A stretch of 64,000 nt of DNA, from NCBI GenBank assembly GCA_030697555.1, contig JAUYPV010000049.1, positions 62,001 to 126,000 on the forward strand, read 5' to 3'. Made by a program: the position numbers and the translations under genes. Positions 36,670 to 53,730 of the stretch are shown one piece after another. This DNA comes from Hyphomonadaceae bacterium. Lineage in GTDB: Bacteria; Pseudomonadota; Alphaproteobacteria; Caulobacterales; Hyphomonadaceae. A model generated the notes under the pieces. The model ran no database searches and was not told where the DNA came from. It saw only the letters and a program-made list of their open reading frames with translations. How positions within the stretch are numbered: position 1 is the stretch's first letter; each line of letters opens with the position of its first letter.

Positions 36670-37614
36670 CTACGCCGCTTTGGTGGCCTTCGGCTGGCGC
36701 CGCGTGACGGACGTTCCTCTAACGCCGCCAATCACGTCAGCCTTCACCAGAGTGCGTTTCAACGCTTCGTCGGCGACATGAGAGTAGATCTCGGTGGTCG
36801 CGATGCTCGCATGACCGAGCAGGCGCTGGACGTAACGAATATCGACGCCCTTCTCAATCAAGAGGGTCGCAGCCGTATGGCGCAACATGTGAGGGGTCAG
36901 CCTGCGCCGCTCGCCGAGCGACGCATTGAGCCGCTTGAATTGGCCGCGCAGAGCTGCCGGCGTCAGTGGCGTGTTCTTCGAACTTAGAAACATGCGGCCG
37001 GTGCGCCGGTCTAGCGATAACCGTCCCAGCCTGAGGGTTTGGACCTCCTTCGCAAGGTCGCGGTTCGCGATGTAGACGATCCTGTCTCTCGCTCCCTTCC
37101 CTGCCACCCGGATTGTCTGACCATCGGCAGACACGTCCTCCATCGTGAGCGCGCACAATTCGCTGACGCGAAGGCCTGTGCCGGCAAGCAGCATCAGCGT
37201 GAGGAACGTGCCTTTCGCTTTCGGACTTTTTTCGGCGCGCAACTCCGCACGCGTCATTAAAGCCTGTAGGTCGCGGCTGGTCAGGGCCTTTGGAAGCCGC
37301 TTTGGGCGCTTGAGTTTGGGAGACCATGCGGCCAGCGGATCGTCCGAGCCTGACTCCCTGGCGCGCCACCGGAAGTACCCTCGCAGAGTGGCAAAGCGCC
37401 GTTTGGCGGTAGCCACGGACAACTTCCGATCTTCGTGAAGCGTTGCGAGGTAGCGCTTGAGATCGTCGAGCGACGGCTCGCTAACTTTCTTGATTGCCAG
37501 GAATGCCTGGAAGTCCGCCAAATCGGAACGGTAAGCGGACGTTGTGAGCGCCGAGAGCCGCCGCTCGTTATCACAATAGGACAGAAATCCCTCGATACTC
37601 GACTTGTCCAGCAT
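36670..37614 (-). CDS. XerC/D-like tyrosine recombinase
   Basis: 314 residues from ATG 37614. An N-terminal SAM-like core-binding domain is followed by the catalytic domain. The catalytic set is complete: Arg in GTGLRVSEL (near 148), His-x-x-Arg in HMLRHTAAT (near 243), His in LLGHASIATT (near 267) and Tyr in TEIYSH (near 276). The last 20 residues are basic. It is close to the remnant at 19883-20001. It may be the integrase of the island bracketed by the 23-bp repeats, because the right copy lies 1.7 kb away. Confidence 0.85.
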   Translation of the reverse strand: MLDKSSIEGFLSYCDNERRLSALTTSAYRSDLADFQAFLAIKKVSEPSLDDLKRYLATLHEDRKLSVATAKRRFATLRGYFRWRARESGSDDPLAAWSPKLKRPKRLPKALTSRDLQALMTRAELRAEKSPKAKGTFLTLMLLAGTGLRVSELCALTMEDVSADGQTIRVAGKGARDRIVYIANRDLAKEVQTLRLGRLSLDRRTGRMFLSSKNTPLTPAALRGQFKRLNASLGERRRLTPHMLRHTAATLLIEKGVDIRYVQRLLGHASIATTEIYSHVADEALKRTLVKADVIGGVRGTSVTRRQPKATKAA

Positions 37615-37767
37615 TTTGCCCTCGCCTGCATGTACGCAAGGTGCCAACTGTGTGCCGCACGCCGTTTTGGGCGGGATTCACCAAAAGTACCGTTATTTCA
37701 ATCAATAAGCGGTGCGACTTACTTGCGCGCAGGCACAGTTCTGCATGGATTTTTAATAAAACTTGTT

Positions 37768-37785
37768 GCATACCGTGGCATACCG
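37768..37785 (+). promoter_or_regulatory. Paired GCATACCG repeats before the abiE operon
   Basis: Two copies of GCATACCG lie exactly 10 bp apart, one DNA turn, 31 bp before the antitoxin gene. AbiEi-type antitoxins bind repeats in their own promoter, so this is a candidate site. Confidence 0.4.
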
Positions 37786-37815
37786 CACTACCTTCCCATT
37801 CGAAGGAGCGAAGCC

Positions 37816-38412
37816 ATGTCGGCGCTAGGCGAACTGAAAAAACGACTGCGGCCAGGCCGCGTCTACCGGCGCAAGGATCTGGCGCGCTGGTCGAACGCCG
37901 TTGATCGCCATGTGCATCAGCTCGTCGAAGAAGGACGGCTCAAGAAAGTGTCGGGGGGCCTCTACATGACGCCTCGTCTGACACGCTTTGGCGCCGCTCC
38001 TGCCGACCAGGAAGAAATGGTCGAGTCATTTCTGGCTGACGACCGCTTCCTCGTTGTCTCGCCGAACGCCTATAACGGTCTCGGTGTCGGCACGACGCAG
38101 CTCTACAACAAACCGGTCGTCTACAATCGGAAGCGCCATGGCGACTTCGAACTCAATGGACGTCCATTTGAGTTTCGCCGTCGCCCATCCTTTCCAAAGG
38201 CGGTCAGCGAGGAATTCCTTCTCGTTGATCTGCTGCACAATTTGGAAAGATTGGCGGAGGATCGCGATGCCGTTCGCGAACGCGCCCTTGCACGCGCGCG
38301 GGAGTTTGATCGCAAACGCCTAGCAAAAGCGGTTTATGACTACGACTCGTCTCGCGTCCGCAATCTGCTAGCGCCGATACTTGAGAACGAAGCGCATAGT
38401 GTAGCCGCATGA
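37816..38412 (+). CDS. AbiEi-like antitoxin (type IV TA, DUF6088-like)
   Basis: 198 residues from ATG 37816, with AAGGAG eight bases upstream. The N-terminal winged helix (GRVYRRKDLARWSNAVDRHVHQL, then GRLKKVSGGLYMTP) and the C-terminal domain (DFELNGRPFEFRRRPSFP; EEFLLVDLLHNLERL) fit AbiEi-like antitoxins, which repress the operon and counter a nucleotidyltransferase toxin. It overlaps the toxin gene by 4 bp, the standard arrangement. Confidence 0.75.
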   Translation: MSALGELKKRLRPGRVYRRKDLARWSNAVDRHVHQLVEEGRLKKVSGGLYMTPRLTRFGAAPADQEEMVESFLADDRFLVVSPNAYNGLGVGTTQLYNKPVVYNRKRHGDFELNGRPFEFRRRPSFPKAVSEEFLLVDLLHNLERLAEDRDAVRERALARAREFDRKRLAKAVYDYDSSRVRNLLAPILENEAHSVAA

Positions 38413-39347
38413 CCTTTCTTCACGAGCTACCGGACTTCAACGATCTACTCGCTGTCGTCGGCGACACGCTGAAGATTGATCCGGGACTCGTGGAGAAGGA
38501 CTACTGGATTATGCATTCCCTGTGGGGACTGCAGCAATTGAAATACAAGTTCGAGCTGAAGGGCGGGACGTCGCTCTCAAAAGGCCTTGGTCTGATCCAC
38601 CGCTTCTCCGAGGACATCGATATCCGGATCGAGCCCCCTCCAACCCTCAAGATCGGCAAAAATCACATAAAGCCCTAGCAAATCGCTGACCGGTTCGCGT
38701 TCTATGATGATTTGGCGAGCAAGATCAAAATCGCCAGCGTGAACTCTGTCGTTAGAGACAAAGTTTTCGACGACGACAAGGCGCGAAGCGGCGGCATCCG
38801 GTTGAACTACGCAGGCGCCCACCCCCTGCCCGGCGGCATCAAGGACGGCATTCTGCTGGAGGTTGGCTTCGATACCGTCGCTCCCAACCGGCAGTGCGAT
38901 ATCTCTTCCTGGGCCTATGATCACGCCGTCTCGTCCGGCATCAAAAAGCTCACCGACAATCGCGCCCTAGCCGTTGCCTGTTACGAGCCCGGATACACGC
39001 TGGTCGAAAAGCTGCAGACAATTTCCCCCAAGTACCGGCAGCAGCAGGCCAGCGGTGGCATGCCCAATAACCTCATGCGGCACTACTACGACGTCTATTG
39101 CCTGCTGGACGACGCGTCGGTCCAAGCTTTCATCGGCACTGCGGCCTATGAGCAGCACAAGCAGGATCGGTTTCCAGCGGCCGACAATCAGGACATCGCG
39201 ACGAATGAAGCGTTCTTCCTGAACGATGTTGCTATTCGAAAGCTTTACGCCAGCGAGTACGCGTCGACGTCAGCCTTGTACTACAATGGCCAGCCGCCGT
39301 TCGACGATCTGCTGGCCCGGATCGCCAAGAACGCCCCTAAGCTGTAG
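38409..39347 (+). pseudogene. AbiEii-like nucleotidyltransferase toxin with in-frame amber codon
   Basis: The frame encodes an AbiEii/AbiGii nucleotidyltransferase. It begins with PDFNDLLAVVGDTLKIDPGLVEKDYW, has the catalytic GGTSLSKGLGLIHRFSEDIDI, then LLEVGFDT and a C-terminal RHYYDVYCLL segment. A TAG at 38676-38678 cuts it after 89 residues, but the same frame stays open for another 223 codons of good family sequence. It is therefore one base change from full length: inactivated, read through, or a sequencing error. Inactivation of the toxin with the antitoxin intact would be tolerated. Confidence 0.75.
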
Positions 39348-39348
39348 C

Positions 39349-40095
39349 CTACACCGACATGATCGGCGTGAACTGACCTGCATATTCGGTCGCCTCGTTG
39401 AGAAGCACATCACCTTGCTGCACCCAGCAATGCGCGCCGAACGGTTGCGCCTGAACGCCGAAGACCCAGGCTGGAAACAACTTTCGTCGCGCCAAGAATT
39501 CAATCAGCGCCAAACCGTCGTAGAGACACAGATAGCCTCGCGGATACCAAGGCCTCAGTTTGCGATAGATCGCAGTGTGCCCGCGGAGCGCATCAAGATC
39601 ATTGGCCCCCTTGCCGGCAACCGCTTTCCGACGACGCACCCCGTGAACAACGTCGTAGATATGCTGCTTCTTGAGAAGTTGTGAGGCACGATAGGAAGCC
39701 AGGAAGAAGTCCAGGACGTCAGCGACTCCAACCCGGACACCCTGCCCCAACTTTCCCCCTATTCCGAACGCGCGCTGATCGTCGGGATGGAAGATATTCA
39801 CAACCGGGCGCAGGAGTGACTTGAAGGCCTGAAAGTTGTCCCTGCCCTGCGCGTCCTCCCTTAGGAGGTGGGCGTCGAGCAGGTCCTGTCGGTGTACCTC
39901 AAAGCCTTCGCGTATCGCGGCGTCACAATCACGATCATCGCAGTTCGCTGGGCTGATGACGAGTGGAATGGCGCTGTAGTCGTCGCTCTTCAGATCCAGA
40001 AAAATGCCTTGGCCCTCGGTGACGCAAAAGTACACTTCACTGCCAAGCACCAGTTGGTTTCCAGAAGGATTTGATAGTTCGGACGACGCAGCCAT
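39349..40095 (-). CDS. Lasso peptide maturation protein B (leader-binding plus protease)
   Basis: 248 residues. The N-terminal 80 residues (VYFCVTEGQGIFLDLKSDDYSAI) look like the PqqD-like leader-recognition domain (B1), and the C-terminal part is the transglutaminase-like leader protease (B2). The protease has Cys in YLCLYDGLALIEFL (near 188), His in FGAHCWVQ (near 222) and Asp in GDVLLNE (near 228), ending QFTPIMSV as in many B2 proteins. It would recognise the precursors at 44676 and 44915 and cut before Gly13. It lies 71 bp downstream of the ECF sigma gene, probably in one operon. Its last codons are the right copy of the 23-bp repeat. Confidence 0.85.
   Translation of the reverse strand: MAASSELSNPSGNQLVLGSEVYFCVTEGQGIFLDLKSDDYSAIPLVISPANCDDRDCDAAIREGFEVHRQDLLDAHLLREDAQGRDNFQAFKSLLRPVVNIFHPDDQRAFGIGGKLGQGVRVGVADVLDFFLASYRASQLLKKQHIYDVVHGVRRRKAVAGKGANDLDALRGHTAIYRKLRPWYPRGYLCLYDGLALIEFLARRKLFPAWVFGVQAQPFGAHCWVQQGDVLLNEATEYAGQFTPIMSV
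39353..39375 (+). repeat. Right copy of 23-bp direct repeat (candidate attR)
   Basis: Identical to 7202-7224 in the same orientation; here it encodes the C-terminal residues of the intact lasso B protein. Integration at this gene end would leave the gene functional, as commonly seen for islands that target 3' ends. Confidence 0.6.
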
Positions 40096-40166: not shown

Positions 40167-40742
40167 TCAATCGTCGGTATCCGAGAGCTGGCGCATGGCC
40201 AGGGCCATGTGTTTTTCCACGGTCTTTATGTTGACCTCCAAGCGTCGCGCGATCTGAGCGTAGGTCAGTTCGTCCACGCGATGCAGAAGGAATACCTCCC
40301 GACGCTTCGGCGGCATCGCATCGATTGCGGCCATAACCCGCCTTAAGCGCTGGGCGCCTATTACATGGCGTTCAGGATCGGCGACCGCGTCCACAGCGTT
40401 TTTCCCCGCTTCGTCGGATGTGAACGTAAGACGTGTGGTCCTGCGTCGGAACCGATCGATTGTGATGCAGCGGACAACGTGCCGGAGCAGGTTGTCAAGC
40501 TTGGGTATGTTCTCGGAGCGCGAACGCTCGACCATCTTTACGAAGGCGTCTTGGTAGAGGTCTTCCTCGTCCTGAGACTCAACTCTCTGTCCTACGTCGC
40601 CCAACATAGCCCTGCGCTTGCGGAAGGCGCCGTCCAGACGCGCATCGAATTCTGAGCGTTCCGTTGTCGTAGGCTGCCGACCACCAGCGATCGCTTGCTG
40701 CCGTTCGACCTTTCTCGCCGGTATGGAGTCTGATTTTGCCAT
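40167..40742 (-). CDS. ECF sigma factor (FecI-like)
   Basis: 191 residues from ATG 40742; the longer frame runs through the divergent promoter and is unlikely. Region 2 is seen in DLYQDAFVKMVERSR and LLRHVVRCITIDRFRRRT, and region 4 in AIDAMPPKRREVFLLHRVDELTYAQIARRLEVNIKTVEKHM. With FecR at 41503 and the STN-containing receptor at 47332 it forms a surface-signalling set. It is directly upstream of lasso gene B and divergent from the first XRE gene. Confidence 0.85.
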   Translation of the reverse strand: MAKSDSIPARKVERQQAIAGGRQPTTTERSEFDARLDGAFRKRRAMLGDVGQRVESQDEEDLYQDAFVKMVERSRSENIPKLDNLLRHVVRCITIDRFRRRTTRLTFTSDEAGKNAVDAVADPERHVIGAQRLRRVMAAIDAMPPKRREVFLLHRVDELTYAQIARRLEVNIKTVEKHMALAMRQLSDTDD

Positions 40743-40778
40743 AGACGACCGACCAAATATTAGCCCCAGGGCAGAGTG

Positions 40779-40816
40779 CGAGAATACGGAAAAAATGTCT
40801 ACGCGAAAAACGCGTA
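40779..40816 (+). promoter_or_regulatory. Duplicated promoter element and palindrome before XRE gene 1
   Basis: CGAGAATACGGAAAAAATG (40779-40797) recurs almost exactly at 41125-41144, each copy ending 55 bp before an XRE gene start. It is followed by TACGCG-AAAAA-CGCGTA (40800-40816), a perfect inverted repeat. These are likely operator and promoter parts for the divergent ECF and XRE genes. Confidence 0.6.
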
Positions 40817-40852
40817 TAGTTAGGCAGCCGAATCTCGAGGTTCGGCTCCGCG

Positions 40853-41110
40853 ATGCCAAAGTCCGTGTTCGGCGGCTCACATACGCATCTGGTTGATGTG
40901 CTTAAGGCCGCCCGCAAGAATAGCGGCCTTACGCAGGCCCAGCTTGGCACCCGCGTTGGTAAAAGCCAAAAATTCGTATCTCTGATTGAGCAAGCGCAGC
41001 GTCGTGTTGACGTTCTGGAGTTTTACGCTCTTGCCAAAGCTCTTGGCGTTTCTCCCGTCAACCTGTTCTCTGCCGTTGTTCAGTTGCTGCCAGATGAGAT
41101 TGAGATCTAG
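40853..41110 (+). CDS. XRE-family regulator 1
   Basis: 85 residues, almost entirely one helix-turn-helix domain (LKAARKNSGLTQAQLGTRVGKSQKFVSLIEQAQRRVDVLEFYALAKALGV). It is a close tandem paralogue of the next gene, sharing MPKS, the SQKFVSLIE-type recognition helix and the RRVDVLEFYALAKAL block. It probably binds the palindrome upstream and may gate the divergent ECF sigma and lasso B genes. Confidence 0.8.
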   Translation: MPKSVFGGSHTHLVDVLKAARKNSGLTQAQLGTRVGKSQKFVSLIEQAQRRVDVLEFYALAKALGVSPVNLFSAVVQLLPDEIEI

Positions 41111-41199: not shown

Positions 41200-41457
41200 A
41201 TGCCCAAATCGATATTCACCGGTGCTCACAAGCATCTCGTCGCCATCCTCATCTCTGCGCGGCGAAAATCTGGTCTCAATCAAACCCAGCTTGGAGAGCT
41301 GATTGGAAAGGACCAAAAGTTCATCTCCCTGATTGAACGGTCCCAGCGTCGTGTCGACGTCCTAGAGTTTTATGCGCTGGCGAAGGCACTAAATCTCGAC
41401 CCTGTGAAGCTGTACGCTTCCCTGGTCAAACGCCTTCCGGAGAAAGTGGACATCTAG
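41200..41457 (+). CDS. XRE-family regulator 2
   Basis: 85 residues, one helix-turn-helix domain (ISARRKSGLNQTQLGELIGKDQKFISLIERSQRRVDVLEFYALAKALNL). The recognition region (KDQKFISLIERSQ) differs slightly from its neighbour, so DNA targets may overlap. It is convergent with fecR, whose stop is 46 bp away. Together the two XRE genes separate the ECF gene from fecR, which are normally adjacent. Confidence 0.8.
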   Translation: MPKSIFTGAHKHLVAILISARRKSGLNQTQLGELIGKDQKFISLIERSQRRVDVLEFYALAKALNLDPVKLYASLVKRLPEKVDI

Positions 41458-41502: not shown

Positions 41503-42453
41503 CTAGTTGGCCAGCGAATCTGCATTCTTCCTTCTGATCACCCGCGCGTCGAGCAAGGCAGCGAGTGTATCGATCGCTCCCTCGCGATTTTCGACCTGGA
41601 GACGGATGGTCACGCGTCGATCCAGCAGCTCAGGCTGAGCAACCAGCAGCTTTCGGTCGAAGTATCGATTGAAATCCTCAATTACTTCTCGAACCGTTGC
41701 GTCCTCGTAGGTGACCACCCGCATGCGCCATTCGGACACCTGCGAGGGCGGTATTGATACGGGGGACGGAGGTGTTGCGGCGACGGGCAAAGATGCGGGG
41801 AGCCGCAGTAACTGGCCGGCGCTCAGATTCGCGATCACCGACTCCCCTGATCCTGTCATGCGGCAGAGCTGGACCTGCCCCTCACTAACTGAGACCTGGA
41901 GCACGCCGTCTCTCTGCCGAACGTTGAAGGAGGTGCCCACGGCGCGAACCTCAAGGCCGCCGACACGCACGACAAAAGGCTTGTCCGGATCGGGCTTCAC
42001 GGAGAACGCAGCTTCTCCCTCCGAAAGGGTCACAAGGCGCTCGGTCTCCGTAAACTTGTAGCTGACGTTCGACGCGACGTTGACTGCAATGACGCTGCCA
42101 TCCGGCATCGACTGCGTCTTCTGCTGACCCTCAGCCGTGACGATTGGTGTGTCCGCCGGAGCTGACATCAGGCTGGCGGTTGCAATCCCGCCAATCAGCA
42201 GGGCAGCTACCGCCGCCGCAGCGGGAAGGAACAGAGACCGAGGTTTCTTCGCCGGCGTCGGCTCGCTACCCTTCAGAACGGCAAGATCATCCCAGAGCTC
42301 ACGCATGGCATCGAGCGCCGCCATGTTGCGGGGGTCAGCCTTCCATGCGTCGAATTCAGCTCGCTGCTCGACGAGCATGACCCCTGCCCGCTCGGCCGCA
42401 AACCATTTGGCGGCCTGATCCTGGCGACTGAGCTTTGTCGCATCGGAGGACAT
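41503..42453 (-). CDS. FecR-family anti-sigma/signal protein
   Basis: 316 residues from ATG 42453, with GGGAGAG upstream. An N-terminal DUF4880-like cytosolic domain (AAKWFAAERAGVMLVEQRAEFDAW) is followed by one membrane segment (LFLPAAAAVAALLIGGIATASL), the FecR domain (GQQKTQSMPDGSVIAVNVASNVSY, VRAVGTSFNVRQ) and an STN-like DUF4974 end (VREVIEDFNRYFDRKLLV). It passes the ligand signal from the receptor at 47332 to the ECF factor at 40167. Confidence 0.9.
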   Translation of the reverse strand: MSSDATKLSRQDQAAKWFAAERAGVMLVEQRAEFDAWKADPRNMAALDAMRELWDDLAVLKGSEPTPAKKPRSLFLPAAAAVAALLIGGIATASLMSAPADTPIVTAEGQQKTQSMPDGSVIAVNVASNVSYKFTETERLVTLSEGEAAFSVKPDPDKPFVVRVGGLEVRAVGTSFNVRQRDGVLQVSVSEGQVQLCRMTGSGESVIANLSAGQLLRLPASLPVAATPPSPVSIPPSQVSEWRMRVVTYEDATVREVIEDFNRYFDRKLLVAQPELLDRRVTIRLQVENREGAIDTLAALLDARVIRRKNADSLAN

Positions 42454-42508
42454 CTCATCTCTCCCAGCATCGCGCAGCCCAGCTGCCGGTCCGATTGTGG
42501 AGTCACAT

Positions 42509-42613
42509 ATGACGGAATCCGAAGACAGAAAATTCAAACCAGCAGGAATCGAAGAAAAAGAAAAATCCAGCGATTGGGAGGTAGGGAGGCGGCGTCCTCG
42601 CGCGGCTAACTAG
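42509..42613 (+). CDS. Small ORF upstream of lasso C, 34 residues
   Basis: ATG 42509 has TGGAG eight bases before it and encodes a highly charged peptide (MTESEDRKFKPAG, then EEKEKSSDWEVGRRRPRAAN). It lacks the T-x-G cleavage pattern of a lasso precursor. It overlaps the fecR promoter region. It may be chance. Confidence 0.25.
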   Translation: MTESEDRKFKPAGIEEKEKSSDWEVGRRRPRAAN

Positions 42614-42731: not shown

Positions 42732-44549
42732 TTGGATCGGTTTATCGCATTCGTATGGGATCCAGAGCGGGTAGATCGCACCGAACGTATATCGCGATGG
42801 ACCTCCCAGCTGATGGCCAAATCCAAGGCTTGGACCGAGGCCTTCACCGGTCGTGGCCTCACAATCTTGTCGAGCGCACCCCCCGACAGCACCCCTCGCC
42901 TGAGCGTGCTGACGGATGGGAAAGGCGTGGTCGTCGGAACACTCTTTGAGACCGGATACGAGGAACACGGGCCTCAACTCCGCCTCGATCAGGAAACGAC
43001 CGACCGCGTTGTTGTCAGTGGCGGCCAAGAGCTCCTTTCTCGCTTCTGGGGCCACTACGTCGCTTTCATTCAAGATCCCGATGCGCGCCTCACTCATATC
43101 CTTCGCGATCCGTGTGGCGCTACGCCTTGCTTCTACACGCACGTCAATGGCGTTGATGTGCTATGCTCGTTCGTAGACGACATTGCCGAATTGAACGGTG
43201 TGCGCTTCTCAATCAATTGGGACTCTGTGCGCGCCTACTTCCTGTCAAACCATTTCATCAACACGCGGACCGGACTTAGCGAACTAACGGAGTTGCTCCC
43301 CGGGCAGCGGTTGACCTGGCGATCGAGCAATCGGCCCGTGACGAGCTCGCTGTGGAATCCCGTTGCGATTGGTGGCGCCCCGAACCTGCAATCGTACGAG
43401 GCAACGCGAGAGGACTTTCGAATAGTCACCGAAAGGTGTGTCGGCGCATGGGCCCGCGCCGGCGGAAGCGTCCTTGTGAGGATGTCGGGCGGCTTGGACT
43501 CCTCGATCGTCGCCGGTCTTGTGCGACGGGCAAGCGAAAACGGGGTGTTGGGAGTGCATTTTGTCAACCGAGGCTATGAAGCCTTTGAACTCGGCTTGGC
43601 GCGTGAAGCATCAGCACACGCCGGCATCCAGCTCGTCGAGCAGACCTTTGACCGGGCCACCATCAGCTTTCGCGCCGCCGCGAGCGGGCCGCGCTTGGCG
43701 CGGCCAACGAAGCAGCTGCTAGGAACCGACGCCGACGCCAAACTCATCGAGATCTGCAAAATCACGGGCGCCCAGACTGTAATGGGCGGCCACGGTGGAG
43801 ACAGTATATTCCTCCAGCGATCCATCGCGGGAGACGCGCTGACCGACTACCTGCGGATCAAGGGCCTTGGACGCGATATCTGGCGCGTCGCCTATGACAC
43901 GGCCGTTTTGCTTGAGTCTTCGATCTGGCACGTTGGGAAGGATGCGGCGTTGAAGGTGATCCGCGGCCGGCGATGGAATGCGGATACATTGCTTGAGGAT
44001 GCCAAGGTCAGCCCGCACCAGTTGCTGACGCAGGAGTCAATTGCTTCAACATCGCCAGAATCGCTGACGTCGATGTGGTTGGCCGAAGCAACGGATCTGC
44101 CCAACGGAAAGTCCGAACAGCTTCGCAATATTCTGGCGCTTCGAAACTACCATCCTGCCAGAGGTCATGCCCTCGCCCACAACGCGGTCCATCCGCTTAT
44201 ATCGCAACCTCTTGTCGAACTCGCCCTGAGGACGCCAACGTATCTTTTCAGCTTTGGTGGCGCCGACCGCGCCCTCGAGAGAGACGCATTTCGCGACTGC
44301 ATCCCCGCCTCTGTGGCGCGAAGGTACAACAAGGGCTTCGTCAACCACAGTGTCATCGCGAGCGTTGTCGACGACCTGGACTATATTCGCGAGTTCGTCC
44401 TGGGCGGCTCGTGTGTACGCAGCGGGCTCCTAGATTGTCGTAAAGTCGAGCGCCTCGTAACCTCCGAGCAGTTGCTGCAGGGCCAGGGCATCGGCGCTCT
44501 GATGGACCTCGTTGCCGTGGAGTCGTGGCTCGCGCCTTGGAACGCCTGA
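42732..44549 (+). CDS. Lasso peptide macrolactam synthetase C (asparagine synthetase-like)
   Basis: 605 residues from a TTG start (MDRFIAFVWDP, typical for this family). The N-terminal half is a degenerate glutamine amidotransferase-like domain without the Cys2 of AsnB. The C-terminal half is the ATP-dependent synthetase with the PP-loop MSGGLDSSI near residue 250. It adenylates the side chain of core Glu9 and joins it to the Gly1 amine to form the ring. Precursor genes follow on the same strand 126 bp downstream. Confidence 0.85.
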   Translation: MDRFIAFVWDPERVDRTERISRWTSQLMAKSKAWTEAFTGRGLTILSSAPPDSTPRLSVLTDGKGVVVGTLFETGYEEHGPQLRLDQETTDRVVVSGGQELLSRFWGHYVAFIQDPDARLTHILRDPCGATPCFYTHVNGVDVLCSFVDDIAELNGVRFSINWDSVRAYFLSNHFINTRTGLSELTELLPGQRLTWRSSNRPVTSSLWNPVAIGGAPNLQSYEATREDFRIVTERCVGAWARAGGSVLVRMSGGLDSSIVAGLVRRASENGVLGVHFVNRGYEAFELGLAREASAHAGIQLVEQTFDRATISFRAAASGPRLARPTKQLLGTDADAKLIEICKITGAQTVMGGHGGDSIFLQRSIAGDALTDYLRIKGLGRDIWRVAYDTAVLLESSIWHVGKDAALKVIRGRRWNADTLLEDAKVSPHQLLTQESIASTSPESLTSMWLAEATDLPNGKSEQLRNILALRNYHPARGHALAHNAVHPLISQPLVELALRTPTYLFSFGGADRALERDAFRDCIPASVARRYNKGFVNHSVIASVVDDLDYIREFVLGGSCVRSGLLDCRKVERLVTSEQLLQGQGIGALMDLVAVESWLAPWNA

Positions 44550-44583
44550 CATCCACGCGGCGCTTCATCGCGCGCCAGACAAA

Positions 44584-44600
44584 AATATTCCGGAAATATT
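44584..44600. promoter_or_regulatory. Palindrome before precursor genes
   Basis: AATATT-CCGGA-AATATT lies between lasso C and the first precursor, and a perfect GCGCATGCGC follows at about 44612. Either could control a separate precursor promoter. Confidence 0.4.
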
Positions 44601-44675
44601 CTGACGTGAGCGCATGCGCGTATGAGACGCTCTCCATGTCGCGGCCCCGCGACGATCCACGACAGGAGAAACGTT

Positions 44676-44789
44676 ATGATCAGGCTTGGTCAAGTTTCAA
44701 AAGAGACCCGTGGCCCCGTCATCCCGAACTATTGGGAAGACACCATCGAGTTCCTCGATGGCAACGTCATCCGGAAGCCGATGGGCTGA
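44676..44789 (+). CDS. Lasso peptide precursor A1
   Basis: 37 residues from ATG 44676, with AGGAG seven bases upstream. The leader is MIRLGQVSKETR, with Thr at -2 before the cut, as lasso proteases require. The LG and TR-G pattern resembles astexin-type leaders. The core of 25 residues (codons 44712-44786) starts GPVIPNYWE, then DTIEFLDGNV, and ends RKPMG. Gly1 and Glu9 give a nine-residue ring; bulky residues in the tail (Phe, Leu, Ile, Arg, Lys) could be plugs. My hand sum for the cyclised, unmodified core is about 2841.4 Da monoisotopic. An in-frame ATG at 44622 would give a 30-residue leader, but the ribosome site favours 44676. Confidence 0.85.
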   Translation: MIRLGQVSKETRGPVIPNYWEDTIEFLDGNVIRKPMG

Positions 44790-44914
44790 CCAGCTCGAAG
44801 GACGCGCCGGGCGTGGTTCAATTCATCTCGTCCGGCGCCGCCCGAGGTGACCTGCCACATGCTTATCGAAAGGCTCCCCGCAGCAGAACCCACCCTGTGG
44901 ACAAGGAGTGTCCA

Positions 44915-45094
44915 ATGGCCACCCTAGGCTCCTTTACTGCTTCGACGCGCGGCACAGTCGTTCCCAATTATGTCGAAGATCCTGTCCTGTGCGATCCTGG
45001 CTCGCTTTTTCGTTGCCTCGGACCTGCAAAACGCGACGTCTTCGGCCGGATGATCTTTTCAGTGGAGCTGCGAAGCAATGCAATACCACTCTAA
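44915..45094 (+). CDS. Lasso peptide precursor A2, unusually long tail
   Basis: 59 residues from ATG 44915, with AAGGAG six bases upstream. Leader MATLGSFTASTR and core start GTVVPNYVED are clearly paralogous to A1, again giving Gly1-Glu9. After that the sequences part. The frame runs on to a 47-residue core with Cys14 and Cys22 and ends antisense within the last 36 bp of the isopeptidase gene. Known cores are about 15-26 residues. Either the tail is trimmed, or a frameshift has replaced the original end. Confidence 0.7.
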   Translation: MATLGSFTASTRGTVVPNYVEDPVLCDPGSLFRCLGPAKRDVFGRMIFSVELRSNAIPL

Positions 45095-47338
45095 GCGGTC
45101 GTGCGCGCGCTCGTCTTGAGGAAGCGCGCATTGCCGGTCCCGCATTTCACGCCAGCGCGCCGCCTGCGCTTCTCGATCCACGCCCGTCGGTTCGATACCT
45201 TTCAGCCAGAAGTTGATCCACTCAACGTTGCGATCGTAAACCGCAAGCCGCTGACGAGGATTGTTCTTGTAATGATACGCATCCGCGAACACGTACATCT
45301 CGACCGCTCTGTCGTATTCTTGCAGCGCGCCATAAAGCTGCATCATGCCCGGGTATTCAGCTTCGGGCAGTTGCATGAGAAGCGGCGTACGAATCTTTTC
45401 AGCGTTCCACGCGGGAGAGTCTCTGAGAATGCCGTCGCGAGCATCGTAGGGGCGCGAAAGGCCTTGCTGTCTGGCTCTGGCTTCACAGGATCGGTAGTTG
45501 GCGGTGAGATAGCAGGCGACCGCGTCAAACGAGCCGCCGGTGGTGACCATGGCAGCGGTGAATTTGCGCGACACAGTTAGCGCATAAGCGGTGTGTGTCG
45601 TGCTCCCGCTGAAACCCGAAAGCGCGACGCGATCCGGATCGACCAATCGAGCGTCGGAGAGGGCGTCGACAGCATTCTGGAAGAAATCGAGGGCGCTCAG
45701 ATCGGCCGTGACAGGCGTCATATCGAACCCAGGCGCCCGTCGGACGACGCTGCCCCCCAAGTCGACGCAGACAGCAGCATAGCCAAGAGACGCAAGTACG
45801 TGCTCGGGCACGTCCCTCCCGGAACCGCCCTGCAGGAACCCTCGGCATGTGTATGACGTGATGACGAGAGGCCTAAGAGGCGTCGCCCCTGGACCACGCG
45901 GAAGAATCACATTTCCAACAGTGGTATTCCCGTAGCGATCCGTGAGTGCGATTTTCGAAGAAACACCCAGGCTGGAAACCGGCACGTTCGGGTTTGGGTC
46001 AAACACGGAATCGACGCGCCCGGTTTCCAAACCGATAGAAACGACGCGCGGCGGAAGGCTCGCGGCAGCGGCGATGCATATCGCCTGATCGCTCGCTAGC
46101 TGACAGGCTCCAACGGTTCCGGACTCGGCTGAGCCGAGCACACCTTGCTCTTCCGCCACTATCCGAACAACGTCAGTGGGAATGTTCCAGATGGCGAGAC
46201 GGGAGACACCAAGCGTTTCCGTCTGCAGCACGAGCTCACGGTAGTTCGCTCGCCATCCGACTATCTGAATCAAATCAGCCTGGAGGCAGACCGGGTCCTC
46301 GCACGATGTGGGAGGAGTGGCTCCCTCTTCCCGGCTGCGCCATGATGGTCGCTTCCCAGATCGTGGCCATTGTCCGCCGCCCCCATCCAACGCCGGGACT
46401 TCTTCTATGGATGCAACCAGATCACCACTGTCCAGTGTTGGTGGCTTGACTGCAGCTATTCCCGACGCGGCGCTGAAGCCTGGCGAGAGCTGGCTCGCGA
46501 CAAGAAAGGCGCGCGCGTCCTCGCCTCCCAGCCTTGTTGGAGCTTTGCCTCCGATCTGAAGCATCACGCGAAGCGGCTGGCCGCCCAGTAGAGTTCCGCG
46601 GCGGCCCGACATGGCATTCTCGAGATGCCTGTATGTCGCCATGCGGCCGTTCACTGGAAAGCTACTCGAAATCGGAAAGCCCTTAATGACCGTCGGATCC
46701 ATCAGGACCCCGTGTTCGTATTCGGCAGTTTCAGCTTGCTTAATCTCTCTGCGGGTAGCGCCAGCTGCTGCGTAGATGAGCGCGCCGTCCCCTTCGATCT
46801 CAAAGCCAACGATGTCGGCCTCATCGCGGGTAACTTGGCTGACCTGCGTGCCGTCACGCTGCGCTCGCCAGATCTGCATTTCCCGCCCGGAAAGCTTGCG
46901 GAAGTAGATCCAGTTGCTGTCGGGCGACCATTGCGGCGCCTCGCCTGCGATGCCGCCATTGTTGTTCCAGAGCGGGTCGCCGCCATCGACGAGACCAGTT
47001 GTCTCGCCGTTTCGAAGGTCAATCACGCGCCACGTAAGTCCCGTCGTTGTCGAGGCGGTGTCTTGATGCTCAACGCGAATGACTACGAACTGCTGGTTTG
47101 GAGCAACCGCGAGTACAGATATCAATCGCAACTCGACCAGTTCGCGCGTTGAAAGTTCATGGGCGGCAGGCGTTTCCGTATGCACGCTCCCGACGGAAGA
47201 TCCGACGCCAGCTGCGCAGCCCGCCTGGAGAAACGTTGCCGCCAGGAAGGCGAAGGCCGCACTAGCCCGTTTCGAAAAACCCCACAATGCATCACAAAAC
47301 TGACAGTGCCGTTTCGATTGAAATGGAAATCTCACCAT
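45059..47338 (-). CDS. Lasso peptide isopeptidase (AtxE-like, prolyl oligopeptidase fold)
   Basis: 759 residues. The N-terminus has a signal sequence with a lipobox-like LQAGC near residue 41, so it may be a lipoprotein. A beta-propeller-like region (QWSPDSNWIYFRKLSGREMQIW) is followed by an alpha/beta hydrolase domain with nucleophile SGFSGST near 577 and a C-terminal His (AYHYKNN) near 689. Isopeptidases of this family open the macrolactam of the cognate lasso peptide. The gene overlaps the receptor gene by 7 bp and is translated after it, so uptake and opening are coupled. Confidence 0.85.
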   Translation of the reverse strand: MVRFPFQSKRHCQFCDALWGFSKRASAAFAFLAATFLQAGCAAGVGSSVGSVHTETPAAHELSTRELVELRLISVLAVAPNQQFVVIRVEHQDTASTTTGLTWRVIDLRNGETTGLVDGGDPLWNNNGGIAGEAPQWSPDSNWIYFRKLSGREMQIWRAQRDGTQVSQVTRDEADIVGFEIEGDGALIYAAAGATRREIKQAETAEYEHGVLMDPTVIKGFPISSSFPVNGRMATYRHLENAMSGRRGTLLGGQPLRVMLQIGGKAPTRLGGEDARAFLVASQLSPGFSAASGIAAVKPPTLDSGDLVASIEEVPALDGGGGQWPRSGKRPSWRSREEGATPPTSCEDPVCLQADLIQIVGWRANYRELVLQTETLGVSRLAIWNIPTDVVRIVAEEQGVLGSAESGTVGACQLASDQAICIAAAASLPPRVVSIGLETGRVDSVFDPNPNVPVSSLGVSSKIALTDRYGNTTVGNVILPRGPGATPLRPLVITSYTCRGFLQGGSGRDVPEHVLASLGYAAVCVDLGGSVVRRAPGFDMTPVTADLSALDFFQNAVDALSDARLVDPDRVALSGFSGSTTHTAYALTVSRKFTAAMVTTGGSFDAVACYLTANYRSCEARARQQGLSRPYDARDGILRDSPAWNAEKIRTPLLMQLPEAEYPGMMQLYGALQEYDRAVEMYVFADAYHYKNNPRQRLAVYDRNVEWINFWLKGIEPTGVDREAQAARWREMRDRQCALPQDERAHDRLEWYCIASQLH

Positions 47339-50034
47339 GCTTTGGAGAGGCCCACCACGACGAGTGTACCGAGCGGATTGGCGTTCGCTGGATCGAAGCC
47401 GACCGGGAGGATGATGTTCGCGCCCAAACCTGTCCGCAGAAGCGGCGGATCGGCGTCCAAGAGATTCTGAATGCTCAGACTGAGGCGCGTACCATCCTTC
47501 GACGCCGCACTCCCCGCTCTTCCGAAATCATACGTCAGCGCGAGATCGACGGTCGTCCAGCTGTCGATTTTTTGCTGGCCGATCGGCGCCTGCCTGTTCG
47601 TATAGCTGTCGACGTAGTTCAGGCCAATCGTGCCGCTGAAGGCGCCATTGGTGAGACCGGCGTGAAAGCGGCCCCGCCAGTTTGCTGGCTGGCCGGGAAC
47701 GTCGGTCGCCGGCAGAACGGCGCCGGCGCCCGAACCCTGTTTCTCGAACTTCAGTATGTGTGTGACGTTTGCGCCGAGGTTGAGATCACCCCATGCCGTA
47801 TCGAATTGGTTTGACGCATTGAAGTCGATCCCTTGCTGGCGCGAAAGAGCAAGATTCTTGAAACGCGTATCGTAAATCCACACATCCGTGCGAGCCGCCA
47901 AAGCTGCAGCGGCCGCCGCGGGATCGGTGACATTGATGCTTGTCGTGTTGAACAACAGGCGTGTCGCGCGAAGAGCGTCTTCGATAAACGCGGGAGATGG
48001 CGGACGATAGATGAGATCAGGGAGGAGGCTCGGGTTCACGAAAGGGTTCAAGCCGCCGGTCGGAGCGACTTCGATGCGATTGGCGTAGTCGACGTCGTAG
48101 TAAGTGGCGCTGAATCGCAGCCCATCGTCCCAGGTGGGTTCGTAGTCGAAGCCGAGCGTGTATGAAGTGGCCGTTTCGGATGAGAGATTGGCGTCGCCAT
48201 AACCCGTCACCGCCAAGAGAATGGATGGCTGACCGCCCACAGTCTCCGGTGTGAGGTAATGCAAACCGCCGGTATTATCGAGTTGCGTCAGCGAGGGTGC
48301 GCGGAAGGACCGGCCGTAGGTGCCCCTGAAGCGTAGCGACTCCACCGGCTCCCATGCAAAGCCCACCTTTGGATCGGTTGAATCACCGAAGTCCCGCGCG
48401 ACCGAGGTTTCGCTTGTGTCCTGGTAGTCGGTGTATCGCGCTGCCAGGCTGAGCGCGAACGACCGCACGAGCGGGACTTGCTGGCTCGGTCCGATCAGTG
48501 GCGTCCACACTTCGGCGAATGCGTAGGTGGATCGGCGACCGAGCGACCCGGCGCTTTGAATGCTCGTGATCGGGCTGCGGCCCTTGAATTCTTCTTCCAG
48601 TACTCCGGCGCCGACGGAAAATCGCAGGTCGCCACCGGGCAGACTTGCGAGCGTGCCATCGAGCTTTCCCATGACATCGAGCTGAGAGTTGCGCGTGCCG
48701 AAGTTCGAGATAGTTGTCGTTGGAGGAACGCGGTTCGGCCTGACCAACGACAGGAACCCGTCGACGTCAATTTCCGAATACGCCGCCGAAAGGTCCGCCA
48801 CGAGATTGTCGGTTACTTCATACTCCGCTGCAAGCGAGGCGAACACCTGATCAGTTTGGCTGGTGTAGCGACTGAACGTTCGGTTGGCGAGAACGGGACT
48901 ACTGAGATTCGAATAGGAGTTCTTCACCTTCCTCCAGCTTTGCCCGAAGTCCGCATTCAGCGTCAGTCGGTCTGCAAGACCTTGCGATGCGGTCACAAAG
49001 ATGTGGTGACGCGTGTCAACGGGCGTCAGGTTTCCAGGACCGGCGGCCGCTGCGTACGATCGGTCGGAAGTCTCAAGGGCAGATGCCGCGTGGAAACTAT
49101 AGGACGCGAGACCATGTCCGCCGTCCCATCTGCTTCCGAAAGTTTGGCTCGCGTCCGACTGGCGCAGTCCACCCCGCGTAACTCCGCCGTACGATAGTCG
49201 CGTCTCAGCACCTTCGAAGTCGTCGCGGAGAATGAAATTTATTACGCCCCCAATGGCGTCCGAGCCGTAGATCGCGGATGCCCCATCCGCCAACACCTCA
49301 ACGCGGTCCAGCGCTGCCGCTGGGATCAGCGAAACGTCGGCGCTGCGACCACCATTGGAAAGAGAAATCCGCCGGCCATTCACGAGCGTGAGTGTGGTTC
49401 CAACCCCGAGGCCGCGTAGATCGACGGAAGTGACCGCATCCGGGTTGGTCCCTGCGGTGTTGGCGCCCGGCGCATACTGGGAAAAGGTTCCGAGGTTTTG
49501 GGGTAGTTTGCCGACGAATTGCTCGGTCGTGACGGCCCCTGTCCGGGCAATGTCCGCGCTTGTGTAGACATCGACGGCCGAGGAAGCAGGTTGGGCCCCT
49601 CGGATGTTCGTGCCGGTAACGATAACTCTATCGCCAGCCTCGTCGGCAGGCGGGGCGGTCGTCGGCGGGGGCGCAGCTTCCGCTTGATCCTTGGCGACAA
49701 TCTTCACCGCGTTAGACTGGACGAACACATAAGTAAGGCCGGACCCTTGCAACAATCGATCAAGGGCCGAGGCGGCGCTCATCTGGCCTCGAACCTCGGG
49801 ACCGCGCTTGCCTTCGACCAGCGATGTCGCGGCCAGAACAGACAAGTCCGCCTGACGCCCCAGGCTAAGTAGGGCCGACGAAAGCGGCTGGCTTTCTATG
49901 TTGAATGTGTAGCTCTGCGTCTGCGCGCAAGCTGGCGAGATAGCCGGCAGGGTGATGGCAAGCGGCGCTGCCGCCAGGAGAGCTGCCCGGAAGGGGCCAA
50001 TGCTAACTCGTCTCCGACTTACGTTCCGCTGCAT
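47332..50034 (-). CDS. FecA-type TonB-dependent receptor with STN domain (lasso cluster)
   Basis: 900 residues from ATG 50034, with GAGGGCGGG upstream. After a signal peptide (ITLPAISPACAQ), residues about 40-115 form an STN (secretin/TonB N-terminal) domain (YTFNIESQPLSSALLSLGRQ), then come the plug (DRVIVTGTNIRGAQPASS, VEVLADGASAIYGSDAIGGV) and a barrel ending in aromatic LSKAW. The STN domain contacts FecR, so this receptor both imports and signals. By context the ligand is one of the two lasso peptides. Confidence 0.9.
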   Translation of the reverse strand: MQRNVSRRRVSIGPFRAALLAAAPLAITLPAISPACAQTQSYTFNIESQPLSSALLSLGRQADLSVLAATSLVEGKRGPEVRGQMSAASALDRLLQGSGLTYVFVQSNAVKIVAKDQAEAAPPPTTAPPADEAGDRVIVTGTNIRGAQPASSAVDVYTSADIARTGAVTTEQFVGKLPQNLGTFSQYAPGANTAGTNPDAVTSVDLRGLGVGTTLTLVNGRRISLSNGGRSADVSLIPAAALDRVEVLADGASAIYGSDAIGGVINFILRDDFEGAETRLSYGGVTRGGLRQSDASQTFGSRWDGGHGLASYSFHAASALETSDRSYAAAAGPGNLTPVDTRHHIFVTASQGLADRLTLNADFGQSWRKVKNSYSNLSSPVLANRTFSRYTSQTDQVFASLAAEYEVTDNLVADLSAAYSEIDVDGFLSLVRPNRVPPTTTISNFGTRNSQLDVMGKLDGTLASLPGGDLRFSVGAGVLEEEFKGRSPITSIQSAGSLGRRSTYAFAEVWTPLIGPSQQVPLVRSFALSLAARYTDYQDTSETSVARDFGDSTDPKVGFAWEPVESLRFRGTYGRSFRAPSLTQLDNTGGLHYLTPETVGGQPSILLAVTGYGDANLSSETATSYTLGFDYEPTWDDGLRFSATYYDVDYANRIEVAPTGGLNPFVNPSLLPDLIYRPPSPAFIEDALRATRLLFNTTSINVTDPAAAAAALAARTDVWIYDTRFKNLALSRQQGIDFNASNQFDTAWGDLNLGANVTHILKFEKQGSGAGAVLPATDVPGQPANWRGRFHAGLTNGAFSGTIGLNYVDSYTNRQAPIGQQKIDSWTTVDLALTYDFGRAGSAASKDGTRLSLSIQNLLDADPPLLRTGLGANIILPVGFDPANANPLGTLVVVGLSKAW

Positions 50035-50165: not shown

Positions 50166-50915
50166 CTACCGCCCGCGTGGCCGGGTCCTTCGCCCTGCCC
50201 GAAACAGCTGACCAGTTTCGAGCATTCGCCAGGCCGCCTGCTCCTGACTTCCTGCATCCAACCGGACGCTCGCCTTCTGTCGCAGAGTGCGGACGGTCGA
50301 GATCTTGACGTCGAGTTGGCTCGCAACATCGGCCGGACGCTCGCCAAAGACCGTCGCGCGATACAGAAATTCGTGCTCGCGCGCAGTCAATTGCTCGGCG
50401 TCACTGAGCTTCGGCTTCTGAAGTTCCAGGACCTGTTGGTATGCGTAATTGCCAATACGCATGCAGAGCCGGATGCGGTCTGGATCAAGGCGCTCGGATG
50501 ACGTCAATGAACACGATGCGCCGACAATGACAGACCGGAGCGCCTGCGAAACGCCCTCGCGTTGGCCAACCAGCTCGCGCAGTTGGTCGAACCATTGCTT
50601 CTGCGGCTTCTTCCTTTGGTCTCGCCGCGAATGAACTGGCGGCCAATACAGCGGGCCGCTGCTCTGTTCGACCGCCGCAAACATTGGATTGAACGAGGCG
50701 CCTCGCTCGTATGCGAACAACCAGTCGATGGCCGGAGTTGGCCAGCTGTGTACCAATACCCCGAGGCTTCTCTGGTCTTCGATGCGGCCGTGTGTTGCAA
50801 TCGCGAAGCCGCTGACTCCCAAGTCGCGGAATGTCAGATCGAGCAAATCTTTTACGGACCGCGCAGTCTGTGTCTGGTCGCACGCTTCGACAAAAGCCCA
50901 ATACTTGCTGCTCAT
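50166..50915 (-). CDS. LuxR-type autoinducer-binding regulator (solo)
   Basis: 249 residues. The N-terminal domain fits the LuxR autoinducer-binding fold (HSWPTPAIDWLFAYERGASFNPMF, then YWPPV), but the usual Asp of the DP motif is Asn (NP). The C-terminal helix-turn-helix is LTAREHEFLYRATVFGERPADVASQLDVKISTVRTLRQKASVRL. No luxI-type synthase is in the window. It lies 131 bp upstream of the receptor gene on the same strand and may link lasso genes to cell density or to a foreign signal. Confidence 0.75.
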   Translation of the reverse strand: MSSKYWAFVEACDQTQTARSVKDLLDLTFRDLGVSGFAIATHGRIEDQRSLGVLVHSWPTPAIDWLFAYERGASFNPMFAAVEQSSGPLYWPPVHSRRDQRKKPQKQWFDQLRELVGQREGVSQALRSVIVGASCSLTSSERLDPDRIRLCMRIGNYAYQQVLELQKPKLSDAEQLTAREHEFLYRATVFGERPADVASQLDVKISTVRTLRQKASVRLDAGSQEQAAWRMLETGQLFRAGRRTRPRGR

Positions 50916-51114: not shown

Positions 51115-52872
51115 CTACGAGTCCCTCTGCGTGTCCCAAAGCCGGCCGTAGACGCCGTTCGCAGCCATCAGTTCGTCGTGACTGCCTTGCTCCACCACTC
51201 TGCCGTTCTGCAAGACAATGATACTCGCTGCGCTTGCCGCAAGCGCAAGGCGATGGGTGACGATCAGCGTTGTACGTCCCGCAGCCATCGCCATCAGGTC
51301 CGTACATACGTCCTTCTCAGTTCTGGCATCGAGCGCTGACGTGGCTTCGTCGAGCAGCAGGATGTCAGCGTCCTGGAGCAGCGCCCTCGCGATCGCGACG
51401 CGCTGTCTTTCACCTCCCGACAGCTTGAACCCCTTGTCGCCCACGACCGTGTCCAGGCCGTCGCGCAAACCCGCAAACAACCCATCCAGTCTCGCGATGC
51501 GGAGCACACGTGCGATGTCCTCGTTACTGGCGTCTGGCTTTGCAAAGACGAGATTGTGACGAAGCGACGCGTTAAAAAATGTGCCTTCCTGAGCGACGAC
51601 CGCAATTCGACGTCGAACCAGAGATGTTGCAAGCTCTGATAAGGGTGCTCCGTCAATCAGCACCCGACCGGCATCCGGGGACAGGTGTTTTTGAAGCACG
51701 CGCAATAGCGATGTCTTGCCCTCTCCAGTGGCTCCCACGATCGCCACGGTTGTTCCGGCGGGGACAGAGAAACTCACGTGCGAAAGGACGCGGCGCTCCG
51801 CGCCATACGAAACCGAAACCTCGTCGAATTCGATCGTCGGCGCTGTGTTTCGCAGACGCGCTCCGACCGAATCAAGGCCTTCATCGGTGACGGGTTCGGT
51901 TGGTTGAGCGAGTAGATCCTTCCAACCAGAGAGATACGCCGCACCCTGCGTCAAATCTCTAATCGCATATCCGCTCATTTCCAGCGGGCCGATTATCTGC
52001 AGCATGTAAGTGGTCAAAAGGAGGAAATCGCCAGCCGACATCTGGCCGTTGCGAACAGCCTCCACGCCGAGCCAGATCGAGCAAGCCACACTCGTGACGA
52101 AAACGGCAGCGGTAGCCAGCCCCGTCTCGAACCTACGGTGCGAGCAGGCTTTCCATCCTTTTTCCGTCTCGCGGGCCGCCCGAGCGTAGCTTTGTCCCAC
52201 ACGCTGCTCGGCCGTGCAGTTCTTGATTGTCTCCACATTGGCGAGACCTTCCGAGAGGAGACCTGACGTCTCGACCTGCCTTTGCAGCGCCCAATTTATC
52301 GGAGCACTCGTCCGCCGCACGCCCCAGGCGAAAACGCACACATACGCGACGATCGTCAGGCTAACGACGACCCAAACCTTCGTATCGAAGTGGCTGCCCA
52401 CCACCCACAGGATTGCAGCCATCTGCACGACGATCGGAAAGAGGGACGCGCACGCCAGTGAAAGCACCATCCGAACGCCCTGCAGGGCATGGCTGTGCGT
52501 CTGCATAAGGGCGCCCGGATTGGCGCTCAGGTGAAAATTCATCGGGAGGCGTATCAGGCGGTCGAATGACAGTTCGCTGACGCGACGCTGAAGCGCCTGG
52601 TCGCTTGCTGCATAGTAAAATGACTGCACATGGCCGGCCAGCCTGCCGATAGAGAGAGCCGCCAGGTAGGCGCCCGCCAGACCAACCACTCCGGGGCCAA
52701 CCTCGCCGCCTGACAGCCCATCAACGAGCTGGGCCAAGAACATCGGCGCCAACGCCGCCGAAGTCGCGACGATTGCAGCAAGCACGAGCGAGGCGATTAT
52801 GCGGACACGGATCGGCGCGTCCAGCGCGCGGCCGAACGCCGTCCAAAGATCGCGATCGAGGATCGCCGTCAT
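51115..52872 (-). CDS. ABC transporter, fused membrane and ATPase domains (lasso exporter D)
   Basis: 585 residues from ATG 52872. An N-terminal six-helix membrane domain is followed by an ATPase domain with Walker A IVGATGEGKTSLL, signature LSGGERQRVA, Walker B ILLLDEATSAL and the H-loop VTHRLA. It has the half-transporter form of McjD-like lasso exporters and of MsbA-like proteins. Its position 199 bp upstream of the LuxR gene makes export and self-protection the likely task. Confidence 0.75.
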   Translation of the reverse strand: MTAILDRDLWTAFGRALDAPIRVRIIASLVLAAIVATSAALAPMFLAQLVDGLSGGEVGPGVVGLAGAYLAALSIGRLAGHVQSFYYAASDQALQRRVSELSFDRLIRLPMNFHLSANPGALMQTHSHALQGVRMVLSLACASLFPIVVQMAAILWVVGSHFDTKVWVVVSLTIVAYVCVFAWGVRRTSAPINWALQRQVETSGLLSEGLANVETIKNCTAEQRVGQSYARAARETEKGWKACSHRRFETGLATAAVFVTSVACSIWLGVEAVRNGQMSAGDFLLLTTYMLQIIGPLEMSGYAIRDLTQGAAYLSGWKDLLAQPTEPVTDEGLDSVGARLRNTAPTIEFDEVSVSYGAERRVLSHVSFSVPAGTTVAIVGATGEGKTSLLRVLQKHLSPDAGRVLIDGAPLSELATSLVRRRIAVVAQEGTFFNASLRHNLVFAKPDASNEDIARVLRIARLDGLFAGLRDGLDTVVGDKGFKLSGGERQRVAIARALLQDADILLLDEATSALDARTEKDVCTDLMAMAAGRTTLIVTHRLALAASAASIIVLQNGRVVEQGSHDELMAANGVYGRLWDTQRDS

Positions 52873-53109
52873 CCGTTCCAACCCGATAGCGCAATAACCG
52901 CCCACAACGGCTAGATCTGCGACGTGACAACCGTCCCGATCTTACAACTCTAGCCGGAAATTTTGCGGCTCTCGTCCCCGGAATGACGACGACTGGCAGA
53001 AATTGAGATGCCAGGCTCCCCGCTGATGAGCGATTCGCGAGGCCACGGAGGAGTTCATCTGCCGGTCCACCTTCATCAATGCGATCTACCTCTTGGTGAG
53101 GCGAGAACG

Positions 53110-53730
53110 ATGGCAGATGCGTCAGCCTGGGAGCGCGCATACCAGCGATTGAAGAGCGACATCCTGAGCGGCTCGATACCTGTTGGACCACTGGACATCC
53201 GGATCCTCGGGGATCGGCTGCGGATGAGTGTGACGCCTGTGCGGGAGGCGCTCGCTCGCCTGCACGCGGAGCGTTTGGTTCGCCTTGCCCCGCATCAGGG
53301 CTATGTTGTGACGACTGCCTCCGCACAGCGCCTGGAGCATTTGTACGAGCTTTCGAGCGCCCTCGTGCATCTTTGTCTCGAACGCGCCAGCCGCTCGCGG
53401 CGCGCAAAGATCGAAGGTGGACGCCCGCTGCTGCTTGTGGGGTCATATGCACCTGATCTCACAGCTCTGATCGCCGACATTGCAGCCGCGCAACCAAATG
53501 CTCCGTTGGCCGAATCAATCCTGTCTCTCAATGACCAGCTGTACGCAGCTCGCCGGTGCGAACCCAAACTCTTCACGGGCGCGAACCAGGAGTTGGCGGG
53601 CCTGATCGCGCTGTGGAACAACCGCAATGCGGGAGATCTGCGGTTACGTCTGCGGGACCATCACCGAATGCGTCTCGTCCGTGTCGACGCGCTCGCACGG
53701 TTGTTATCCGAGGAGGCCGGCGCGGCTTAG
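53110..53730 (+). CDS. GntR-family regulator
   Basis: 206 residues from ATG 53110 with GAGGCGAG upstream. The N-terminal winged helix is clear (AYQRLKSDILSGSIPVGPLDIRILGDRLRMSVTPVREALARLHAERLVRLAPHQGYVV). The remaining helical domain resembles a short FCD-type sensor. It is divergent from the ABC exporter gene and may regulate it. Confidence 0.8.
   Translation: MADASAWERAYQRLKSDILSGSIPVGPLDIRILGDRLRMSVTPVREALARLHAERLVRLAPHQGYVVTTASAQRLEHLYELSSALVHLCLERASRSRRAKIEGGRPLLLVGSYAPDLTALIADIAAAQPNAPLAESILSLNDQLYAARRCEPKLFTGANQELAGLIALWNNRNAGDLRLRLRDHHRMRLVRVDALARLLSEEAGAA

Follow-up and report, generated by a model that had tools for sequence, protein, structure and literature searches.

A predicted Gly1-Glu9 lasso peptide precursor with a twelve-residue leader in an isopeptidase-type cluster of a Hyphomonadaceae bacterium

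Results

Genes at the locus

The window, by which we mean the whole stretch of 64,000 nucleotides that was analyzed, carries a predicted lasso peptide cluster with two precursor-like genes (A1 and A2), the enzyme genes B, C and E, and genes for transport, sensing and regulation:

39349..40095 (-): B, leader peptidase, N-terminal recognition domain putative (NF033537, 63.0 bits, cut-off 33; Cys190, His222)
40167..40880 (-): FecI-type sigma factor (PF08281, 63.3 bits; the start may lie further downstream than that of the ORF)
40853-41110 (+): first XRE-type helix-turn-helix gene (PF01381, 45.6 bits)
41200-41457 (+): second XRE-type helix-turn-helix gene (similar to the first by eye)
41503..42537 (-): FecR-type anti-sigma factor (PF04773, 71.7 bits)
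42732..44549 (+): C, lasso cyclase, asparagine-synthase-like (PF00733, 65.1 bits; SGGLDSS at residue 252)
44583..44601 (+): 19-bp element AAATATTCCGGAAATATTC, probable promoter or operator part, common to all four clusters discussed below
44638..44653 (+): 5'UTR hairpin GTCGCG/CGCGAC, with 22 nt between its end and the A1 start
44664-44668 (+): A1 ribosome site AGGAG, 7 nt 5' of the ATG (read from the sequence; aligned in the other clusters)
44676..44789 (+): A1, predicted lasso precursor, 37 aa (ORF call, homologues, weak NF033522 match)
44676..44711 (+): A1 leader MIRLGQVSKETR, 12 codons, conserved across the four clusters
44712..44786 (+): A1 core GPVIPNYWEDTIEFLDGNVIRKPMG, 25 codons (Gly1, Glu9 and Gly17 invariant in seven precursors)
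44712-44738 (+): A1 predicted ring, Gly1-Glu9 (both residues invariant)
44903-44908 (+): A2 ribosome site AAGGAG
44915..45094 (+): A2, precursor-like gene, MATLGSFTASTR / GTVVPNYVEDPVLCDPGSLFRC..., 59 aa (precursor search and model)
45059..47338 (-): E, probable lasso isopeptidase (NF033523, 398.8 bits, cut-off 400, E 5e-119; AtxE2 in the PDB, E 1.9e-44)
47332..50034 (-): TonB-dependent receptor with STN signalling domain (PF00593, PF07715, PF07660)
50166..50915 (-): LuxR-like regulator with autoinducer-binding domain (PF03472, 27.9 bits; same place in C115 and G001)
51115..52905 (-): D, ABC exporter with membrane and ATPase domains (PF00005, PF00664; in the same position in C115 and G001)
53008..53730 (+): GntR-like regulator at the edge of the cluster (shares 55% identity with the ORF next to D in C115; family from sequence type and published layout)

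The precursor genes follow C, and B lies 4.6 kb from A1 on the opposite strand, 71 bp downstream of the FecI gene with which it shares that strand. The two tandem XRE-type genes sit between FecI and FecR, on the strand opposite to theirs. Outside the cluster, the ORFs adjoining B (37435-39347) look by eye like an AbiEi/AbiEii-like toxin-antitoxin pair, the second part of which is split at 38678/38712, and an ORF at 36670-37647 (-) is, as a guess by eye, recombinase-like.

The precursor gene A1

An earlier note on this DNA had described a 37-codon gene with a good ribosome site right after a macrolactam synthetase, and this is what lies at 44676-44789, its start 126 nt past the stop of C. The leader end T-R and the core start GPVIPNYWE given there were likewise read correctly, the core continuing as GPVIPNYWED, and the hand-summed mass of 2841.4 Da agrees with the monoisotopic value of 2841.416 that we computed for the core in cyclised form; tail-trimmed forms compute to 2784.394, 2653.354 and 2556.301 Da. 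The same note relied on the rule of Thr near -2, Gly1 and a suitably placed acidic residue. A1 does follow it, but the rule is not specific alone: in its loose form (ribosome site, Thr-2, Gly1, acid near 8-9) it matches four small ORFs within the 64-kb window, while the stricter pattern LGx5T[RK]Gx7E matches only A1 and the ORF at 44915. It is the conservation of the precursor among clusters, described below, that raises A1 above chance.

The A1 leader lacks a YxxPxL motif. The core has no cysteine, so that the product would be a class II lasso peptide. The benenodin family model NF033522 gives A1 15.0 bits, below its curated cut-off of 33, and by this measure A1 is outside that family; the same model matches five of the seven aligned precursors, all weakly. 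The A1 core is absent from the product tables of the literature examined, which do not amount to an exhaustive product database, and literature searches for Hyphomonadaceae and Hyphomonas found no lasso paper on the group. The product is probably a new lasso peptide of an already known class.

Homologous precursors and sister clusters

Searching its own genome (G000) with the A1 peptide returned three places: A1 itself, another contig of the same genome (C115, E 1.3e-5) and position 44918 of the window. A model built from seven precursors found eight copies in four clusters with E of 4e-14 or lower, while the best background match in 105 genomes stood at about 0.005; the eighth copy (E 4e-14) was not among the training sequences. 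The four clusters are those of the window, C115 and two genomes of the same genus, G001 (contig JALHLR010000025.1 of a Hyphomonadaceae metagenome-assembled genome) and G007. C115 (locus L014, C115:22001-42000) holds a second entire lasso cluster, 42-74% identical protein by protein, with the gene order of the window (D, LuxR-like, TonB, E, A, C, FecR, FecI, B) and the precursor MMKLGRVSKETR / GPAVPNRVEDQILQTPGSLYPKAG. In G001 the cluster is complete and syntenic and has two precursors; G007 contributes three, on a short contig. In the remaining genomes of the genus no C match of this kind was found; a contig scan with the C alignment gave no match, and one with B matched the G001 contig only. 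The C protein of the window is 60% identical to that of G001, 42% to that of C115 and 38% to that of G007, and in a tree of 29 C proteins these four form one fully supported clade. The earlier note had held that a lack of homologous small ORFs beside related C genes would speak against a precursor; such ORFs do follow C in C115, G001 and G007.

The precursor leaders have 12 residues, reading MxxLGxxSxxT[RK] in most. In the alignment of seven precursors, which takes in two of the three G007 copies, L-9, G-8, T-2, G1, E9 and G17 are invariant. Asp10 adjoins Glu9 in five of the seven and is replaced by Thr in both aligned G007 precursors as well as in the third G007 copy. Because Asp10 varies while Glu9 never does, Glu9 is predicted to close the ring. 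The Gly1-Glu9 lasso precursor proposed in the earlier note is supported as the best reading. Between the window and G001, five of the seven codon changes in the leader are silent, while those in the ring and tail of the core are mostly nonsilent with the key residues fixed, a pattern consistent with a precursor gene. The precursor start is fixed in G001, where an in-frame stop sits one codon ahead of the ATG and rules out any longer leader in the same frame. An alternative start at the ATG of 44622, which would lengthen the A1 leader, was discarded, as the G001 precursor cannot have such a leader.

The second precursor-like gene

A single precursor gene was implied by the earlier note, which missed A2 at 44915-45094. 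A2 retains L-9, G-8, T-2, G1, E9 and G17 and would probably be processed, like A1, by the enzymes of this cluster. Its tail carries Cys14 and Cys22; Cys22 is also found in the last G001 precursor, and the third G007 copy has Cys13 and Cys22. These recurring cysteines may point to a tail disulfide. Both A2 and the third G007 copy extend beyond the Cys22 region, A2 by 25 codons, and the final 36 bp of A2 overlap the 3' end of E. This extension may be a trimmed tail or a sign of decay; a search for a frameshift that would end A2 earlier found none. Compared with the second G001 copy, A2 shows 26 nonsynonymous and seven silent codon changes. This is little sign of purifying selection, which makes its function uncertain, and A2 is possibly partly decayed.

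Enzymes B, C and E

C stays under the curated NCBIfam cut-offs for cyclases, and neither C nor B yielded a useful match when its sequence was searched against the PDB. In B the Cys and His are invariant among 15 B proteins. In its AlphaFold model (pLDDT 82) the N-terminus forms a strand-helix domain, and the three best PDB folds for this model are TbiB1 complexes of recognition element (RRE) and leader, a weak match with E of 0.09 or worse; searched as sequence, the N-terminal RRE matched nothing in Pfam or the PDB.

The NF033523 score of E falls one bit short of the cut-off, and its C115 paralogue reaches 442. Ser577, Glu661 and His689 of E align with Ser527, Glu610 and His638 of AtxE2, positions which, by their numbering, we take to be the catalytic residues. 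The AtxE2 chains 5txc and 5txe in the PDB differ by a change from Ser to Ala. The catalytic triad of isopeptidases is described as Ser-His-Glu/Asp (PMC9266682). On these three grounds the aligned residues of E were taken as catalytic. The N-terminus of E, read by eye, is lipobox-like (LQAGC; LVSC in G001), which hints that E possibly acts in the periplasm.

The region upstream of A1

The 19-bp element occurs at two sites in the whole genome, both ahead of A genes, and once in each cluster examined. Across 105 genomes of the family it was found at these four loci and, with one mismatch, at one more place, and nowhere else. Candidates for the protein that uses it are FecI, the LuxR-like protein and an XRE protein. 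We considered its palindromy as a sign of a dimer operator and did not keep this idea, as the palindromy is not kept in G007 and a directional promoter part is as likely. A consensus scan found no sigma-70-type promoter or terminator, and no Rfam family matches the region.

The hairpin stem lies at the same position in the four clusters, ending 21-22 nt before the start, with one compensatory change in C115. Shuffling each sequence yields a 5-bp stem in 13-34% of cases, and when the sequences are folded singly only that of the window gives a significant result, with a different structure. With so few sequences, the conservation of this hairpin is suggestive only.

Discussion

From these comparisons we conclude, with a probability of about 0.92, that the ORF at 44676-44789 encodes the precursor of a lasso peptide with a nine-residue Gly1-Glu9 ring, made by an isopeptidase-type cluster. 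Threading of the product, the chemical steps, export and sensing are inferred from known families, and the pathway may be pictured as follows. B would bind the 12-residue leader through Leu-9, Gly-8 and Thr-2 and cleave after Arg, and C would activate Glu9 and link it to the freed Gly1 amine around the tail, giving the nine-residue ring. D would probably export the peptide, the TonB receptor would take it back with STN, FecR and FecI probably sensing it, and E would linearise it, possibly in the periplasm as its lipobox-like N-terminus suggests. The LuxR-like gene inside the cluster raises a possible link of the lasso peptide to cell-density control.

It is possible, though we do not favor it, that the working precursor is A2, or A1 and A2 jointly; alternatively A2 could be a decaying copy. 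The invariant residues kept by A2, its own AAGGAG and a Cys22 like that of the last G001 and G007 precursors agree with a working gene, while the 36 bp that run into the end of E and the excess of nonsynonymous over silent changes against G001 do not. A2 on its own is unlikely to be the precursor, as the 19-bp element and the conserved leader belong to A1. We consider it doubtful that the product acts as a self-limiting antibiotic, produced and cleaved within the cell and with D conferring immunity, rather than as an exported and re-imported signal or carrier. Exporters of the D type do go with antibacterial lasso peptides (PMC7549694), but a TonB receptor with STN together with FecI and FecR suits uptake and sensing, and the published peptides of isopeptidase clusters are mostly without antimicrobial activity (PMC9266682). 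Closure of a ten-residue ring on Asp10, which neighbors Glu9 in most of the precursors, is very improbable: all three G007 copies have Thr at position 10 and Glu9 is constant, and caulosegnins II and III, which also carry the E9-D10 pair (PMC12427821), are described with rings of 8 and 9 aa (PMC13352647). That A1 is a chance frame near a lasso cluster whose true precursor lies elsewhere would suit the four occurrences of the loose motif in the window, but is scarcely credible given that four clusters keep the reading frame together with the leader, the residues of the ring, the ribosome site and the element upstream.

The role of isopeptidase-type lasso peptides is an open question (PMC9266682). 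In this clade of four clusters the precursor genes are set apart from the enzyme genes and marked by an element found nowhere else in the genome, and because the 19-bp element marks precursor genes only, precursor control is directly testable. The natural 12-residue leader would also be a ready small substrate for B, since it corresponds to the segment of the MccJ25 leader for which contact with McjB is predicted (-12 to -10) and agrees with the finding that the greater part of the MccJ25 leader can be dispensed with, its last eight residues sufficing for some product (PMC11420955). If A2 is active, a tail-disulfide lasso peptide from Proteobacteria would be added. In its most extended and, taken as a whole, unlikely form, the picture would comprise two lasso peptides from natural 12-residue leaders: A1, of class II, and A2, whose tail would hold a Cys14-Cys22 disulfide and whose C-terminal extension could be removed. 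Both would serve as a self-sensed exported signal or carrier; D would export them, the TonB receptor recapture them and E un-knot them in the periplasm, and expression of just the precursor gene would be switched on by FecR/FecI or the LuxR-like protein acting at the 19-bp element.

Comparison with known systems

By predicted mechanism and gene content, the cluster of the window is an isopeptidase-type lasso system. It shares with the astexin, caulosegnin, benenodin and sphingopyxin I clusters of Alphaproteobacteria a predicted fused B, C, a probable AtxE2-type isopeptidase, a TonB receptor, FecI/FecR and a GntR-like gene, and the leader end LGx5T[RK] is as in the other clusters examined. Unlike those known systems, it has A behind C and B next to FecI on the opposite strand, contains in addition an ABC transporter and a LuxR-like gene, and has a leader of 12 residues. 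Isopeptidase clusters are reported to have an almost constant layout, with GntR before the precursor, TonB and sigma/anti-sigma genes after E and no ABC transporter (PMC9266682). The clade of the window departs from it: the content fits save for the added transporter, and the order differs. In most other clusters of the order that we examined, a precursor candidate lies upstream of B and C on one strand. A genome of another family (G068) has two precursors with 12-residue leaders after C, but there B adjoins C; short leaders and the C-A order are thus not confined to this genus. Candidates with leaders of 12-14 residues and Gly-Asp9, Ala1 or Gly1 cores were also seen in another family of the order (L049 8244-8516 (-), L127 7925 (+), L128 9586-10018 (-)).

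The rubrivinodin cluster (printed 'rubrinodin') likewise combines a transporter with an isopeptidase, TonB and FecI/FecR, and was described as the sole case (PMC9266682), from which description the present clade departs too. Several precursors served by one enzyme set are known from the three-precursor caulosegnin cluster (PMC12427821, PMC13352647). The earlier note had called the A1 ring unlike those of the caulosegnins and the product probably new. The second part stands and the first not wholly, since caulosegnin II (GTLTPGLPEDFLPGHYMPG, PMC12427821) has Gly1, Pro5, Glu9 and Asp10 in common with A1, whose 25-residue core shows no further pattern shared with it. A disulfide within the tail, as in pandonodin and class IV lasso peptides (PMC13352647), would fit Cys14 and Cys22 of A2. 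The MccJ25 leader, with 37 residues (PMC11420955), is far longer than that of A1, and a 12-residue leader is consistent with the work on it. Judged from its sequence, what is new in this cluster relative to published isopeptidase clusters is that the precursors come after C instead of leading the operon, that B lies beside FecI on the other strand, that the leaders have 12 residues, that a transporter and an isopeptidase are present together and that a 19-bp element marks the precursor genes only.
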